Shown piece by piece: positions 54,744 to 60,502 of a stretch of DNA of 64,000 bases. This stretch comes from Emcibacter sp. SYSU 3D8 (GTDB lineage: Bacteria; Pseudomonadota; Alphaproteobacteria; SMXS01): NCBI RefSeq assembly GCF_039655875.1, contig NZ_JBBYXK010000003.1, positions 434,001-498,000 of the forward strand, given 5' to 3'. A program made the position numbers and the translations under genes. Each line of letters begins with the position of its first letter. Position 1 is the stretch's first letter. Below the pieces are notes generated by a model. That model did not search any database. It saw only the letters and a list, made by a program, of their open reading frames with translations, and was not told the origin of the DNA.

Positions 54744-56201
54744 ATGGCGGCGGGCATCACGGCGTTCGGGGCATATATTCCGCGGTTGCGGCTGAACAGG
54801 GCCAGCATCGCGGCCGCGCACAAATGGGCCATGCCCGGCCTGCGCGGCATGGCCAAGGGCGAACGCTCCATGTGCAACTGGGACGAGGACGCCATCACCA
54901 TGGCGGTCGAGGCCGCCCGCGATTGCCTGACAGGCCGCGATCGCTCGGACATCGACGGCGTATTCTTCGCCTCGACCACCCTGCCGTTCATCGACCGCCA
55001 GAACGCCGGCGTCATCGGCGCCGCGCTCAACCTGGAACACGGCATCTCGTCGCTCGACATCACCGGATCGCAGCGCGCCGGCACGTCGGCGCTGATCACC
55101 GCCCTGAAAAGTGCGGGCGAGGGCGACACGCTGCTGGTGGCCGCCGATGCGCGCAAGGCACAGCCGGCCTCATCGAGCGAGATGCAGTTTGGCCACGGCG
55201 CCGCGGCGCTGACGGTGGGCACCGGGAATATCGTGGCCCGGCTGGTCGGTAGCTACACGGTCACGACGGATTTCGTCGATCACTTTCGCGGCGAAGGCCA
55301 GGAGTTCGACTATGGCTGGGAAGAGCGATGGATCCGCGAGGAGGGCTATTCGAAGATCGTGCCCCAGGCGGTGAAGGCCCTGCTGGAAAAGACCGGCGTC
55401 GCCGGCGCGCAGATTTCCCGGTTCGTCATGCCCTGCACCATGAAGGGCATCCCGGACCGGATCGCCAAGGGATTCGGCATTCCGGCCGAGGCTGTCGCCG
55501 ACACCCTCGGTGAGGTATGCGGCGACACCGGCGCGGCGCATGCGTTGCTGATGCTGGCCGCGGCGCTGGAGACGGCCAAGGCGGGCGATCTGATCCTGGT
55601 CGCCGCGTTCGGCCAGGGCGCCGACGCCATCCTGCTCGAGGTGACCGATGCCATTGCCAGCCTGCCCGGGCGGCAGGGCGTCTCGGGCGCGCTGGCGCGG
55701 GGCCGGAAGGAAGACGACTACATGAAGTTCCTGTCCTTCCAGGGCAACGTGAAGCTGGATTGGGGCATGCGCGGCGAGGTCGACAACAAGACCGCGCTCA
55801 GCAGCGAATACCGCAACAAGGAAATGGTCACCGGCTTCACCGGCGGCAAATGCTCGGTCTGCGGCACGGTGCAGTTTCCGCGGACCCATTATTGCGTCAA
55901 TCCCAACTGCCAGGCCCTCGATACGCAGGAGCCCTACTCGTTTGCCGACAGTCCGGCGCGGGTTATGTCATTCACGGCGGACTGGCTGTCCTACAATCCC
56001 AGCCCGCCCTTCTTCTACGGCCAGGTGCAGTTCGAAACCGGCGGCCGGGTGCTGATGGGATTCACGGACACGGATGCGGGACAGATCGACGTGGGTTCCT
56101 CGCTGAAAATGATGTTCCGCATCAAGGACTATGACAACGACCGGGGTTATCGCCGCTATTTCTGGAAGGCGGCTCCGGTTTCAACAGGCAAGGAGGCCTG
56201 A
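54744..56201 (+). CDS. Thiolase-fold HMG-CoA synthase-like protein fused to DUF35 zinc ribbon/OB domain, catalytic Cys missing
   Basis: The protein has 485 residues. Residues 1-350 look like the HMG-CoA synthase/KAS III fold, but the site of the nucleophile in archaeal HMG-CoA synthases (ACKAGT) reads SQRAGTSAL, with Q110 in place of Cys. The His region (HQPN) reads MPCTMKG and the Asn (GN) reads GE, so the catalytic triad is lost. A DUF35 zinc ribbon follows (C370, C373, C384, C389), then an OB-like part. The stop is 2 bases before the next thiolase start. Such pairs are known from thiolase/DUF35 and Ltp2-DUF35 complexes. ATG 54744 follows GGGAGG. Confidence 0.85.
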   Translation: MAAGITAFGAYIPRLRLNRASIAAAHKWAMPGLRGMAKGERSMCNWDEDAITMAVEAARDCLTGRDRSDIDGVFFASTTLPFIDRQNAGVIGAALNLEHGISSLDITGSQRAGTSALITALKSAGEGDTLLVAADARKAQPASSSEMQFGHGAAALTVGTGNIVARLVGSYTVTTDFVDHFRGEGQEFDYGWEERWIREEGYSKIVPQAVKALLEKTGVAGAQISRFVMPCTMKGIPDRIAKGFGIPAEAVADTLGEVCGDTGAAHALLMLAAALETAKAGDLILVAAFGQGADAILLEVTDAIASLPGRQGVSGALARGRKEDDYMKFLSFQGNVKLDWGMRGEVDNKTALSSEYRNKEMVTGFTGGKCSVCGTVQFPRTHYCVNPNCQALDTQEPYSFADSPARVMSFTADWLSYNPSPPFFYGQVQFETGGRVLMGFTDTDAGQIDVGSSLKMMFRIKDYDNDRGYRRYFWKAAPVSTGKEA

Positions 56202-56203
56202 AC

Positions 56204-57403
56204 ATGGCACGGGGAATTCGCGACAAGGTCGCCATCATTGGCATGGGCTGCAGCAAATTCGGCGAGCGCTGGGATTCCAACGCCGAGGACCTGATGGTCG
56301 AGGCGTTCAACGAGGCGTTGACGGACGCGGGCATCGAAAAGAACCAGATAGAGGCGGCCTGGCTTGGCACCGCTTTCGACCGGGTGCATGTGGGCGCCTC
56401 GGCGCTGCCGCTGTCGACGGCCCTGCGGCTGTCCAGCATTCCGGTCACGCGGGTCGAGAACATGTGCGCCACCGGCACCGAGGCGCTGCGCGGCGCCACC
56501 TATGCGGTCGCCTCCGGCGCCTGCGATATCGCGCTTGCCCTGGGCGTCGAGAAGCTGAAGGACACCGGCTATGGCGGCCTGCCCGCCGGTTCGCGCGGTC
56601 CGCTGCCCGATCTCTGGGTGCCGAACGGCTCGGCGCCGGGCAATTTTGCCCAGCTGGCCACCGCCTATTCGGCCAAGCATGGCGTCAGCGCCCAGGACCT
56701 CAAGGAGGCCATCGGCCACGTGTCGTGGAAGAGCCACCAGAACGGCGCCAAGAATTCCAAGGCTCACCTGCAGAAGGCGGTGACCATGGAGACCATCCTG
56801 AACGCGCCGATGATCGCCGAGCCGCTGGGCCTGTTCGATTGCTGTGGCGTCAGCGACGGCTCGGCCTGCGCCATCGTCACCACGCCCGAGATCGCCAAAA
56901 GCCTGGGCAAGCAGGACATCGTCTCGATCAAGGCGCTCCAGCTGTGCCTATCCGACGGTGTCGAGAGCGCCTTCAACACCTGGGACGGCAGCCATTTCGC
57001 CACCACCCGCGTGGCGGCGAAGAAGGCCTATGAGGAAGCCGGCATCAAGGATCCGCGCAAGGAACTCAGCATGATCGAGGTGCACGATTGCTTCTCGGTC
57101 ACCGAGCTGGTGACCATGGAGGATCTGTATATCTCGGCGGAAGGCCAGGCGGTGAAGGACGTCATGGATGGCTTCTACGACGCCGACGGCCCCGTCCCGT
57201 GCCAGATCGACGGCGGCCTGAAGTGCTTCGGTCATCCCATCGGCGCCTCGGGACTGCGCATGATCTACGAGGTCTACCTGCAGCTGCTGGGCCGCGCCGG
57301 TCCCCGCCAGCTGAAGAACCCGACCTTTGGCCTGACCCACAATCTGGGAGGCGCGCCGCACGCCAATGTCTCGGCCATCTCGGTGATCGGCCGGTATAAC
57401 TGA
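56204..57403 (+). CDS. SCP2-type thiolase (acetyl-CoA acetyltransferase family)
   Basis: The protein has 399 residues. The catalytic residues are intact: C88 in ENMCATG, H294 in EVHDCFSV and the CFGHPIGASG segment with C341/H344. It fits the SCP-x thiolase family, which cleaves or forms acyl-CoA bonds, often of branched or sterol-derived chains. It is 2 bases beyond the thiolase-like/DUF35 gene, so the two are co-translated and may form one complex. The natural substrate is unknown; nearby P450, SDR and branched-chain dehydrogenase genes suggest catabolism. Confidence 0.9.
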   Translation: MARGIRDKVAIIGMGCSKFGERWDSNAEDLMVEAFNEALTDAGIEKNQIEAAWLGTAFDRVHVGASALPLSTALRLSSIPVTRVENMCATGTEALRGATYAVASGACDIALALGVEKLKDTGYGGLPAGSRGPLPDLWVPNGSAPGNFAQLATAYSAKHGVSAQDLKEAIGHVSWKSHQNGAKNSKAHLQKAVTMETILNAPMIAEPLGLFDCCGVSDGSACAIVTTPEIAKSLGKQDIVSIKALQLCLSDGVESAFNTWDGSHFATTRVAAKKAYEEAGIKDPRKELSMIEVHDCFSVTELVTMEDLYISAEGQAVKDVMDGFYDADGPVPCQIDGGLKCFGHPIGASGLRMIYEVYLQLLGRAGPRQLKNPTFGLTHNLGGAPHANVSAISVIGRYN

Positions 57404-57520: not shown

Positions 57521-58168
57521 CTAGCGCGCCTCCAACATGCCGATCTTGCCGATCAGTGTCTGGTACAAGGGGGGCGAAGCGTCGGCGGCCAATATGACAT
57601 AGAGCGCCAGCAGACAGCGTTTGCGGTATTCGCCCAATGTGATGTGCCGATAGGTCCAGTCCAGCAGCGTCTTCATCTGGCTGTTCAATATCTGTCTGCT
57701 CAGTATTTCGGCGGAAATCGCTCCCTTCAGCTTACCCGAAATCTGCCCCCGGCGTATAATGCGCTGCTGTCCGGCCAACAACAGCTCGGTCAGTTCCTCG
57801 ATTTCGGCCTTGTAGGCGCCCTGCCTCGACAGGTTGTCGAATGCGATGTTGGCCGCCCTGCGGAGCTCCTGTATTGCCGGATCGGCCAAGTCTGTCGTCA
57901 CCATGACGCCGGCCTCGAGCTTTTCCAGAATATGCTCGTCATCGACCTTTTCCACCTGGCGTTCGATGTCGGCGACCATCTCGATGCAGATCTCGAGCAT
58001 CAGCGTATTCTTGTCGCCAATCAGATTATAGATCGTGGTTGCGGACACATTGGCGGCCGCAGCCAGATTCCGCACGCTGAACGCCTCGGCATCGCTTCCC
58101 GCAAGCAGTTTCCTGGCCCGCGCCAGGATGCGCTGGCGTCTTTCATGCATGGCCTCCAACGTCTGCAC
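57521..58168 (-). CDS. TetR-family transcriptional regulator
   Basis: The protein has 215 residues. The N-terminal HTH reads RILARARKLLAGSDAEAFSVRNLAAAANVSATTIYNLIGDKNTLM, typical of TetR proteins. The ligand domain is unremarkable. GTG 58168 is used because AAGGA precedes it by 9 bases. A perfect 7-1-7 palindrome lies 16 bases ahead of it and could be its operator. It is divergent from the P450-SDR genes, the likely regulon, and faces the thiolase genes convergently. Confidence 0.88.
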   Translation of the reverse strand: MQTLEAMHERRQRILARARKLLAGSDAEAFSVRNLAAAANVSATTIYNLIGDKNTLMLEICIEMVADIERQVEKVDDEHILEKLEAGVMVTTDLADPAIQELRRAANIAFDNLSRQGAYKAEIEELTELLLAGQQRIIRRGQISGKLKGAISAEILSRQILNSQMKTLLDWTYRHITLGEYRKRCLLALYVILAADASPPLYQTLIGKIGMLEAR

Positions 58169-58184
58169 TCGGATTTTTCCTTCC

Positions 58185-58199
58185 GTTCCGAATCGGAAC
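58185..58199. promoter_or_regulatory. Perfect palindrome, candidate TetR operator
   Basis: GTTCCGA-A-TCGGAAC is a perfect 7-bp inverted repeat with a one-base centre. It lies 16 bases ahead of the TetR gene's GTG, between it and the P450 gene, a usual place for autoregulation. Confidence 0.55.
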
Positions 58200-58341
58200 A
58201 ATGTCGATATCACCGTTACAATATACAAAGAAATGATTAAATTTATGATGAGGATCCTACGCCTAAATGGGTTTTAATATAAGGATTATAACGACAATCT
58301 TGGCAAAATGATTTGCGATCTAAAAATATTGACACAGTGTA

Positions 58342-58370
58342 TCAGTATAAATTAGAGCTCAGTATAAATT
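58342..58370 (+). repeat. Direct repeat upstream of the P450 gene
   Basis: TCAGTATAAATT occurs twice (58342-58353 and 58359-58370), 17 bases start to start. A consensus TTGACA lies at 58329-58334, so these repeats overlap the expected -10 area and leader. A second regulator site is possible. Confidence 0.4.
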
Positions 58371-58467
58371 GGTATGCCGGGTCATGGATCCAGGCACGCT
58401 GCCGCGGCACTCGATGGTGCGTCAGTTGGGCCCGGTGGACGATTTGTGGATGCAAGGAGAAGATGGC

Positions 58468-59649
58468 ATGACCGATCTGGCCCACGACGCAGCCGCACTC
58501 GACTTCCTGTGTCCGGAGGAAATGTCCGATCCAAGCGTCACCATTCAACGGCTCTACGCCGGGGATCGCTGTCGTCTCTATGAAAAGTTCCTGCCTCCGT
58601 TTTTCGTCGTCTCGCGCTTCGAGGATGTAAACCACGTACTCATGAACCCCACGCGGTTCCTGAGCGGTCACGGCCAGGGGCCCAACTTCGTGCCGCCCGC
58701 CGGCATTGTCTCCGATGCGCCCATGCATACTTTTTTCCGCCGCCTGGTGCAGGACGACTTCAAACCCGGCGCAATCGCAAGACTGCGCCCGCGGCTCGAA
58801 CGCATCGCCGATGAGCTGCTCGACGCCGTTGAAGACAAGGAGACCTGGGACCTTCACGACGATTTCTCCTTCCCCTTGCCGGTGACCATCATCTGCGAGA
58901 TTTTTGGCGTGCCGACCGACGATCTCCGGCAGTTCAAGAAATGGTCGGATACCTCGGTTGCCGCGCTCTCCGCCCAGGACCCGTCCGCCTATGTGGAAGA
59001 ATTGATGCGCATGCGCGATTACCTCGTCGCGTTGCTGCACGAGAAGCATGACGATCTTGACGATGAGGGTCTGCTCGCCCGCATTGCCCGCGCTCGGCGG
59101 GACGGGGCGGAACTGAGCGACGAAGAGGCGGTTTCGCTGGTTCTGCAGCTCTTCGTGGCAGGCAACGAAACCACCACTTCACTGATTACGAACGTGATGA
59201 TGCGTCTCCTGGGCGACGGCTATCAGTGGGCGGATTTCTGCGCGGGCAAGATTGATATGAAAAATCTGATCAACGAAAGCTTGCGGTATGATCCGCCGCT
59301 GCTTGCCATGTTCCGAACCACGGCTGGTGACGAAACAATAGCGGGGACTCGGATCCCAGCCGGCACCAAGGTCATGATCCATTATGCTGCGGCCAATCGG
59401 GATCCAGACGTCTTCGAGAACCCCGAAACATTCGATGTGCACCGTCCGGTCAGAAAAATCACATCCTTTGCCCTGGGCGTCCACTTCTGCATCGGCGCGG
59501 AACTGGCCAAGCTGGAGGCCGAGGTGATGCTGGAGGCCTTGCGGAAGCGCTGCCCGAACCTCGAGATGATCGATGAGGGGGAGCGTATCGGACCGTTTCT
59601 GTTCTGGGGACGTCGCAAGTTGCCCGTCAGGGCGGCCGGCGGCCACTAG
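58468..59649 (+). CDS. Cytochrome P450
   Basis: This 393-residue soluble bacterial P450 has the I-helix AGNETTT (E234-T236), the ExxR pair E270/R273, and the haem-ligand loop FALGVHFCIG with C341. It needs a ferredoxin and reductase, which are not in the window. ATG 58468 follows AAGGAG. It hydroxylates a small hydrophobic compound; the substrate is unknown. It is followed by an SDR that could oxidise the resulting alcohol. The TetR gene and its palindrome are upstream. Confidence 0.93.
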   Translation: MTDLAHDAAALDFLCPEEMSDPSVTIQRLYAGDRCRLYEKFLPPFFVVSRFEDVNHVLMNPTRFLSGHGQGPNFVPPAGIVSDAPMHTFFRRLVQDDFKPGAIARLRPRLERIADELLDAVEDKETWDLHDDFSFPLPVTIICEIFGVPTDDLRQFKKWSDTSVAALSAQDPSAYVEELMRMRDYLVALLHEKHDDLDDEGLLARIARARRDGAELSDEEAVSLVLQLFVAGNETTTSLITNVMMRLLGDGYQWADFCAGKIDMKNLINESLRYDPPLLAMFRTTAGDETIAGTRIPAGTKVMIHYAAANRDPDVFENPETFDVHRPVRKITSFALGVHFCIGAELAKLEAEVMLEALRKRCPNLEMIDEGERIGPFLFWGRRKLPVRAAGGH

Positions 59650-59725
59650 TCCGGACGTGTCCAGGACAAGCGTGCGGGCTTGCGCGGCGGGCCTGTTCGA
59701 TACCGAAGCAAATGGGGAACGGACG

Positions 59726-60502
59726 ATGGAATTGCGCAACAAGAGAATTATCGTGACGGGTTCAGCCCGTGGCATGGGGGCGGCAGCCGTTCGAGCCTAT
59801 GTCGGCGCCGGCGCCAATGTCATCGGCATGGATCTCATGGACGAGGCCGGCGCCGCCATCGCCGTTGACGCGAACGCGAAAGGCCCGGGCACAGCGGACT
59901 ATCTGCACGTCGACGTCTCCGACAAGGAAAGCGTGGCAACTGCTTTTGCCGAAGCGGTCAAGCGCTTGGGCGGGCTCGATGCGCTTGCCCATCCTGCGGC
60001 GATCCAGCGTTCGTCTTCAGCCAGTGATGTCAGCGTGGAAGACTGGGAACTCATGTTCGCCGTCAACGTGCGAGGGACAATGCTGACCAATCAGGCCGCG
60101 CACGGCTACATCAAGGCAGCCGGCGGCGGCGCCATCATCAATTTCGGCTCCATTTCGGGATTGCGGCCCGAGCCCGCAGCGGCGGCCTATTCCGCCTCCA
60201 AAGGCGCGGTTCACTCCTGGACGCGGACGGCGGCAGGCACGTGGGGTGCCGACAACATTCGCGTCAACGCCATCCTGCCGGCAATTGCGACTCCGATGCT
60301 GAAGGAAGCCGCCGCCCGCGCCACGGATGAACAGAAAGCCGCCGGCTATTGGTTGAATGTGAGTACGATCGCCATGGGTCAGGAATATGGCGACCCGGAT
60401 CGCGACCTGGGGCCGGTAATGGTCTTCCTGGCTTCGGATGCATCGCGATTCATCACGGGTCAGTTGATCCCGGTCGACGGCGGTCAGACCAATGTTCGCT
60501 GA
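59726..60502 (+). CDS. Short-chain dehydrogenase/reductase
   Basis: The protein has 258 residues. The cofactor motif TGSARGMG falls at residues 11-18, the catalytic Y155/K159 reads YSASK with GSISG before it, and a C-terminal GQLIPVDGGQTN is as in classical SDRs. The usual NNAG reads HPAA, which may alter cofactor or loop packing. It lies 76 bases after the P450 gene in the same direction and probably oxidises the P450 product. ATG 59726 follows GGGAACGG. Confidence 0.9.
   Translation: MELRNKRIIVTGSARGMGAAAVRAYVGAGANVIGMDLMDEAGAAIAVDANAKGPGTADYLHVDVSDKESVATAFAEAVKRLGGLDALAHPAAIQRSSSASDVSVEDWELMFAVNVRGTMLTNQAAHGYIKAAGGGAIINFGSISGLRPEPAAAAYSASKGAVHSWTRTAAGTWGADNIRVNAILPAIATPMLKEAAARATDEQKAAGYWLNVSTIAMGQEYGDPDRDLGPVMVFLASDASRFITGQLIPVDGGQTNVR

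Follow-up and report, generated by a model that had tools for sequence, protein, structure and literature searches.

Complexes in which a thiolase-fold subunit is bound by a DUF35 protein occur with and without a third partner having the fold of hydroxymethylglutaryl-coenzyme A (HMG-CoA) synthase. Passages of one report (PMC6392133) name Cys114 and Glu82 as key residues of the archaeal HMG-CoA synthase, and describe PhlA, of the acyltransferase PhlABC, as having neither the Cys nor the Glu, with acyl transfer performed by PhlC alone and PhlA and PhlB probably required for a folded complex. They also list His56, Tyr124, Trp211 and Tyr298 among the pocket residues of PhlC. The PhlC nucleophile, Cys88, was confirmed through a C88S variant, according to part of a second report (PMC12955522), and sections of both attribute catalysis to PhlC alone on the basis of structures and mutagenesis (PMC6392133, PMC12955522). 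Similarly, parts of the SSO2064 paper (PMC2954200) call PhlA inactive and mention proteins in which DUF35 is joined to a member of the thiolase superfamily. For the aldolases Ltp2 and Sal, a section of a further report (PMC12329534) places the chemistry in the thiolase-type subunit, via the Tyr of a YDHF/YDCY motif, and also gives the second Cys of SCP2 thiolases as a proposed proton donor. Here we describe a pair of adjacent genes in a 64,000-nucleotide stretch of the Emcibacter sp. SYSU 3D8 genome (contig NZ_JBBYXK010000003.1, positions 434,001 to 498,000, forward strand; hereafter the window), one encoding an HMG-CoA-synthase-fold domain joined to DUF35 and the other a thiolase. The two quite likely constitute a heteromeric thiolase of catabolic beta-oxidation, in which a catalytic SCP2-type thiolase is accompanied by a non-catalytic HMG-CoA-synthase-fold/DUF35 subunit. 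Features are listed by window coordinate, with residue frequencies from the alignments described below.

54744..56201, + strand: fused subunit of 485 amino acids (aa), comprising an HMG-CoA-synthase-fold domain without the Cys (about aa 1-340) and a C-terminal DUF35 domain (about aa 347-480), the latter a zinc ribbon plus OB fold
55071..55073, + strand: codon of Q110, at the catalytic-Cys position of HMG-CoA synthases by alignment to Cys114 of 6esq
55431..55433, + strand: codon of P230, at the position of the 6esq His; all 103 core rows have Pro, and 9 of the 88 wider rows another residue
55524..55526, + strand: codon of D261, at the position of the 6esq GNT Asn; all 103 core rows have Asp or Glu
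55851..55910, + strand: zinc ribbon with Cys 370, 373, 384 and 389 (C-x2-C-x10-C-x4-C)
56204..57403, + strand: SCP2-type thiolase of 399 aa with C88, HDCF (H294, C296) and GHP (H344); NCBIfam PRK06157

The open reading frame of the fusion starts with an ATG at 54744, 3' of a purine-rich GGGGAGGA stretch, and its TGA stop ends at 56201. Two bases separate this stop from the ATG of the thiolase, and an AGGAGG lies within the 3' end of the fusion reading frame, before the thiolase start. A first-pass annotation of the window had described a normal thiolase at this distance, with C88 and H294 in its active site; both residues are as it stated, and C296 and H344 accompany them.

The same annotation held that Gln had replaced the nucleophile Cys of the fused protein, and this is borne out by HMMER alignments to the archaeal HMG-CoA synthase 6esq, on which residue pairs were counted by hand in the printed output: Q110 falls on the catalytic Cys114, T78 on Glu82, P230 on the His of VFHQP and D261, within GDTG, on the Asn of GNT. 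This His and Asn are presumably catalytic residues of 6esq. Their replacement had also been suspected and is upheld for both, although the altered Asn had been sought at GE (256-257), four residues from the Asp that occupies its position. A misaligned active site was considered and rejected, as Q110 is placed on Cys114 by pairwise phmmer and again by a 51-row profile; the fold comparison, whose output lists no paired residues, is not a third test of this alignment. Also rejected was an active HMG-CoA synthase, on account of the changes at all four positions and of scores below the NCBIfam cut-offs for NF003274 (190.2 bits against 244), TIGR00748 (133.4 against 353.35) and TIGR01835 (45.8 against 360.35).

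Loss of the nucleophile is a family-wide trait of the fused proteins. The core alignment of 103 rows comprises 22 sequences from a search of 60 related genomes, 80 from a scan of genome contigs and the window, which is included twice (also as L001) alongside some duplicate genomes. The scan confirmed at least 577 relatives, of which the best 80 were kept; selection by the motifs WDED and EERW means that it favours the core family, albeit with no bias on residue 110. Free of this bias is a plasmid search, 20 of whose 48 records were examined, 12 with their surroundings (8-9 kb flanks) and eight in addition; with seven whole-genome members, some of which may repeat genomes already in the core set, these make up 27 further members. 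Position 110 is occupied in the core rows by Gln (75), Leu (17), Met (4), Thr (3), Arg (2), Asn (1) or Ser (1) and never by Cys, nor was a Cys found there among the 27 further members, one of which has a gap. A combined later alignment, likewise of 103 rows, has 65 Gln, 16 Leu, seven Thr, five Arg, three Ala, two Met, one each of Asn, Ser, Pro and Gly, and one gap. Among the sequences compared, the Cys is present in the archaeal HMG-CoA synthase outgroup; the aligned fused proteins yield neither a Cys at the true active-site position nor homologues in which one is conserved. Position 261 is Asp in 60 core rows and Glu in 43. With at least 577 relatives, and shared changes in those aligned, the fusion is not a chance event, and a pseudogene or local oddity was rejected on the same count.

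In KSQ domains, a Gln mimics acylated cysteine. Gln110 might by analogy make the fused protein a decarboxylase of the malonyl type, for which its standing as the commonest residue at this position speaks. However, 28 of the 103 core rows have another residue (17 of them Leu), and Pro, Ala, Arg, Thr and Gly are among those found in distant members; since Gln110 is not conserved, a Gln-dependent decarboxylase is highly improbable. The first-pass annotation had offered aldolase, decarboxylase or scaffold as the role of the fused protein, and of these the scaffold is supported and the two activities are not, position 110 varying in a way that a catalytic residue would not.

By contrast with the fused protein's altered residues, those of its partner are retained. 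C88 is present in 88 of 88 pairs, HDCF in 86 and GHP in 85, with gaps accounting for the other two and three, respectively. The window thiolase scores 687.8 bits with NCBIfam PRK06157 against a cut-off of 403, and among solved relatives the archaeal acetoacetyl-CoA thiolase (1.3e-53) is far ahead of PhlC (2e-19 to 4e-18). By position, C296 of HDCF is the second Cys of SCP2 thiolases, and the thiolase active site, as judged from these motifs, is complete and SCP2-type. The aldolase Tyr of YDHF/YDCY is absent, with His in its place in all 86 alignable partners, which speaks against the Ltp2/Sal aldolase mechanism. Retro-aldolases of the Ltp2-DUF35 kind had been cited as a precedent for the pair; the partnership of DUF35 with a thiolase fold stands as a parallel, while the aldolase chemistry finds no support, its Tyr belonging to the thiolase subunit, where HDCF is found here.

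Pfam reports a synthase-III C-terminal match in the fused protein and Thiolase_N/C in its neighbour, and the zf-ChsH2 and OB_ChsH2_C matches of the DUF35 part fall, in part narrowly, below threshold (PF12172, 22.9 against 23.2 bits; PF01796, 21.2 against 27.1). A profile built from 35 C-terminal domains nevertheless matches the solved DUF35 proteins 6esq_E (3e-11), PhlB (1e-8) and ChsH2-DUF35 (0.004). The predicted model of the whole fused protein has a mean predicted local distance difference test score (pLDDT) of 90.4 and a predicted template modelling score (pTM) of 0.92, and best matches 6esq_J (Z 45.9 over 333 residues, 1.8 A), followed by 9skh_A (44.4), 5mg5_A (43.3), 5m3k_A (43.1), MucA (9vbt/9vbo, 40.6) and MvaS (38.4). 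Two acyltransferases (through their PhlA subunits) and the archaeal thiolase/HMG-CoA synthase/DUF35 complex (through its HMG-CoA synthase) supply the solved chains nearest to the N-terminal domain. Predicted alone, the C-terminal domain (pLDDT 81.1, pTM 0.72) matches the DUF35 of 6esq (Z 13.3), PhlB (12.8), MucB (12.7), the Sulfolobus factor Trf (12.6) and ChsH2 (12.4), then Shy (11.9), BbsA (10.4) and the SSO2064-type 3irb (8.5), before a fall to 6.3. Predicted fold and profile matches thus link both domains to one set of three-part complexes, whose parts are here contained in two chains. The zinc ribbon ascribed to the fused protein in the first-pass annotation is thus confirmed by profile search, predicted fold and four zinc Cys, of which C370 is present in 103 of 103 rows and C373, C384 and C389 in 91 each. 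These last three are each replaced in 12 rows that retain C370, L012 and L017 being without all three, and the rows concerned are possibly a subclade lacking a normal zinc site.

The two genes are also closely tied. Of 75 loci offering 700 bases (b) or more of room, 69 have a thiolase within 150 b downstream of the fusion, with 31 within 20 b; the distance is 1.8-6.9 kb in five, and at one (L053) no thiolase was found over the remaining 1.5 kb of contig. Some of the genes intervening at the five wider loci (L040, L058, L065, L078 and L087) are common to several of them (clusters 31, 32 and 98). Four haloarchaeal loci have the reverse gene order, with the thiolase before the fusion. The two proteins diverge in step, with a correlation of 0.88 over 76 pairs, a raw value not corrected for the species tree, against a maximum of 0.12 in 1000 permutations. 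The window's genome also harbours a second fusion/thiolase pair, 55% and 71% identical, with a short-chain dehydrogenase/reductase (SDR) gene directly 3', and four further, more distant thiolases, two of which adjoin DUF35 matches. Given the close linkage of the thiolase, the co-divergence and the identity of the closest solved relatives of both fusion domains as complex subunits, the fused protein and the thiolase probably form one complex, as the first-pass annotation had supposed.

Genes around the pair hint at its role. Those that recur encode SDR, acyl-CoA dehydrogenase, a MaoC pair, enoyl-CoA hydratase (ECH) and CoA ligase; at least one member of a beta-oxidation-type cluster is present at 44 of 80 loci, and beta-oxidation-type genes at 11 of the 12 plasmid loci, one of these having SDRs only, with none in the 8-9 kb flanks of the twelfth. 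The 116 adjacent genes, from 63 of the 80 loci, include MaoC-N (12), SDR (11), TPR (9), DUF308 (7), AMP ligase (6), ECH (6) and acyl-CoA dehydrogenase (4), and the first 25 families among 90 distal genes include acyl-CoA dehydrogenase (4), CoA-transferase III (3) and SDR (2), counts that are not independent, as many loci come from few genera (those with MaoC neighbours being mostly Reyranella-like). SDR, MaoC, ECH and ligase genes are therefore enriched beside the pair, whereas acyl-CoA dehydrogenases are not (4/116 against 4/90). The tally omits L032, L062, L076, L101 and L102, in which simple gene calling missed the fusion, the thiolase or both, other loci where no adjacent pair was called, and the gene L098:10737-10997 (one of 117 near genes); proteins longer than 420 aa were trimmed to 420, and among the acyl-CoA dehydrogenase clusters, three in all, one (number 35) owes its label to visual inspection, while representatives of the other two were scanned. 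Some loci have no pathway context, for instance those of Parvibaculum, where the neighbours are by eye glmU- and glmS-like.

At four plasmid loci the pair adjoins a ring-hydroxylating dioxygenase gene, at two of them with a CoA ligase as well, a layout that we take to be similar to that of the ibuprofen ipf cluster. In part of a report on that cluster, ipfDE is called a thiolase (PMC9195938). The dioxygenases would also suit a complex acting as a PhlC-like C-acyltransferase or a retro-aldolase, its thiolase subunit carrying out another reaction on C-C bonds, and both PhlABC and the Ltp2/Sal aldolases are indeed thiolase folds with DUF35 partners. Such an activity is nonetheless unlikely: His stands where the aldolase Tyr would be, the thiolase is nearer to the archaeal acetoacetyl-CoA thiolase than to PhlC, and at many loci the neighbours amount to much of a beta-oxidation set. 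A further plasmid locus, L113 (Novosphingobium sp. ES2-1 plasmid p3, 9001-15108), has the fused pair and a separate lipid-transfer protein plus OB-fold protein within 7 kb, so that two DUF35-type systems occur in one cluster among acyl-CoA dehydrogenase, SDR, ECH and P450 genes.

If the pair is a heteromeric thiolase, its two genes would encode a single enzyme in which Cys88 of the thiolase accepts the acyl group, while His294 and Cys296 of HDCF, together with His344, manage protons, the reaction running in the direction of cleavage. The fused protein, an HMG-CoA synthase fold without its nucleophile in one chain with DUF35, would be non-catalytic. DUF35 may, as in its relatives, clamp the thiolase and the HMG-CoA-synthase-fold subunit at a shared CoA site, and the dead half of the fusion most likely serves to stabilise the thiolase and to shape its pocket, as proposed for PhlA. 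That pocket could suit a particular beta-oxoacyl-CoA, perhaps a bulky or branched one.

A number of points weigh against this account. As PhlC performs acyl transfer, an intact thiolase site is no proof of thiolysis. Within the flanks covered, 36 of the 80 loci have no beta-oxidation cluster member, other genes, among them TPR (9/116) and DUF308 (7/116), also often adjoin the pair, and no pathway or substrate is indicated by the genes around it in the window (sensor kinase, TetR, P450, SDR and E1 dehydrogenase). Furthermore, D189, Y190, E193, R195, W196 and D/E261 are present in 103 of 103 core rows, and H266 in 101; such polar residues, invariant or almost so, would also suit a rebuilt, cysteine-free site. 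The HMG-CoA-synthase-fold domain would then itself be an enzyme, for example a hydratase, aldolase or hydrolase, using D/E261, H266, E193, R195 or similar residues in a step before or after the thiolase, and Pro230 and Asp/Glu261, which in the core family have become fixed at two positions that were once catalytic, could be viewed in the same light. Yet distant fused members vary, H266 giving way to Gln, Gly, Asp or Ser and D/E261 to Phe, Tyr or Asn; D189/Y190 are changed in 7 of 88 rows and P230 in 9, while an intact thiolase remains the partner; and PhlA, which has no catalytic part, has the same change of Asn to Asp. E193, R195 and R182 are still found in 86 of 88 rows, compatible with a scaffold or an enzyme. 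On balance we consider a catalytic HMG-CoA-synthase-fold domain unlikely, and give only a slim chance to its stronger form, in which this half is a second Cys-free active site whose product passes via the shared CoA site to the thiolase. Were that so, D189, Y190, E193, R195, W196, P230, D/E261 and H266 would replace the HMG-CoA synthase residues, and the second site could perform a new step, such as aldol cleavage or hydration of a CoA ester.

The fused family is widely but unevenly distributed. According to record titles, core members come from Alpha-, Beta- and Gammaproteobacteria, Desulfobacterota-type organisms and a few other bins, and the 12 plasmid relatives, with identities down to 27%, from Proteobacteria, Rhodococcus, Mycobacterium, Streptomyces and haloarchaea. 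A hand count of rows gives high-scoring fused genes in 17 of the 60 related genomes, that of the window among them (an automatic tally of 25 takes in weak FabH-type matches), and a phylum-wide sample has the fused gene in only 7 of 299 genomes, again counting that of the window, so that the family is patchy. One fusion, 91% identical to the window's, is on a contig titled Candidatus Kuenenia stuttgartiensis (L032), a title that is probably the reference label of a metagenome bin; its upstream genes cluster with those of L031. The plasmid records examined label the fused genes 'OB-fold domain-containing protein', 'synthase III C-terminal domain-containing protein', 'zinc ribbon domain-containing protein', 'ACP synthase' or 'hydroxymethylglutaryl-CoA synthase', the last being misleading because the catalytic residues are lost. 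In the window, an EAL response regulator and a hybrid sensor kinase lie upstream of the pair, and a TetR regulator, a P450, an SDR and a 2-oxoacid dehydrogenase E1 pair downstream. The TetR gene (minus strand), cytochrome P450 and SDR lie at 57524-60502, after the pair, and are possibly a small catabolic unit.

No description of the fused pair or its kind was found in the titles and abstracts of the literature searched, a coverage outside which most subscription journals lie, and the two-gene pair apparently represents a known class of enzyme complex in a form not yet characterised. It outlines a family of two-gene thiolases, spanning Proteobacteria, Actinobacteria and haloarchaea, with a dead HMG-CoA synthase fold joined to a DUF35 clamp, and would offer a simple system for asking why three-part thiolase complexes retain a catalytically empty subunit.

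Among known systems, the benzoylsuccinyl-CoA thiolase BbsAB (7pxp) resembles the pair in combining a DUF35 protein with a thiolase and, as named, in its beta-oxidation role. To our knowledge, however, it has no HMG-CoA-synthase-fold part, and the window thiolase, at 136.7 bits, falls short of the BbsB equivalog cut-off of 750. The Ltp2-ChsH2 and Sal-Shy aldolases share the binding of DUF35 to a thiolase fold and differ in the Tyr that is His in window-type thiolases; moreover, DUF35 is fused in Shy to a MaoC hydratase, according to part of one report (PMC11321319), rather than to an HMG-CoA synthase fold. The archaeal complex (6esq) has the same three folds, suggesting a similar assembly, but in three parts instead of two chains, and its synthase, described in sections of PMC6392133 as making HMG-CoA, retains the Cys114 and Glu82 that are both altered in the window fusion. 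The closest parallels are PhlABC/CsATase (5m3k, 9skh) and MucABC (9vbo), whose HMG-CoA-synthase-fold subunits are likewise without the catalytic Cys, the aligned position being Gly in PhlA, Glu in MucA and Gln in the fusion. PhlA is the best profile match to the fusion (2e-48) and has GDTG or GDAG at the Asn position where the fusion has GDTG. As in the window pair, the nucleophile-less part of PhlABC is joined by a DUF35 part and by a thiolase-fold subunit with Cys88 (PhlC), encoded here by a linked gene. By contrast, PhlA and PhlB are separate chains, while their window counterparts form one chain of 485 aa, so that three separate subunits become two; the thiolase partner is SCP2-type and nearer to the archaeal thiolase than to PhlC; and the context of PhlABC is biosynthetic, whereas that of the window-type pair looks catabolic.

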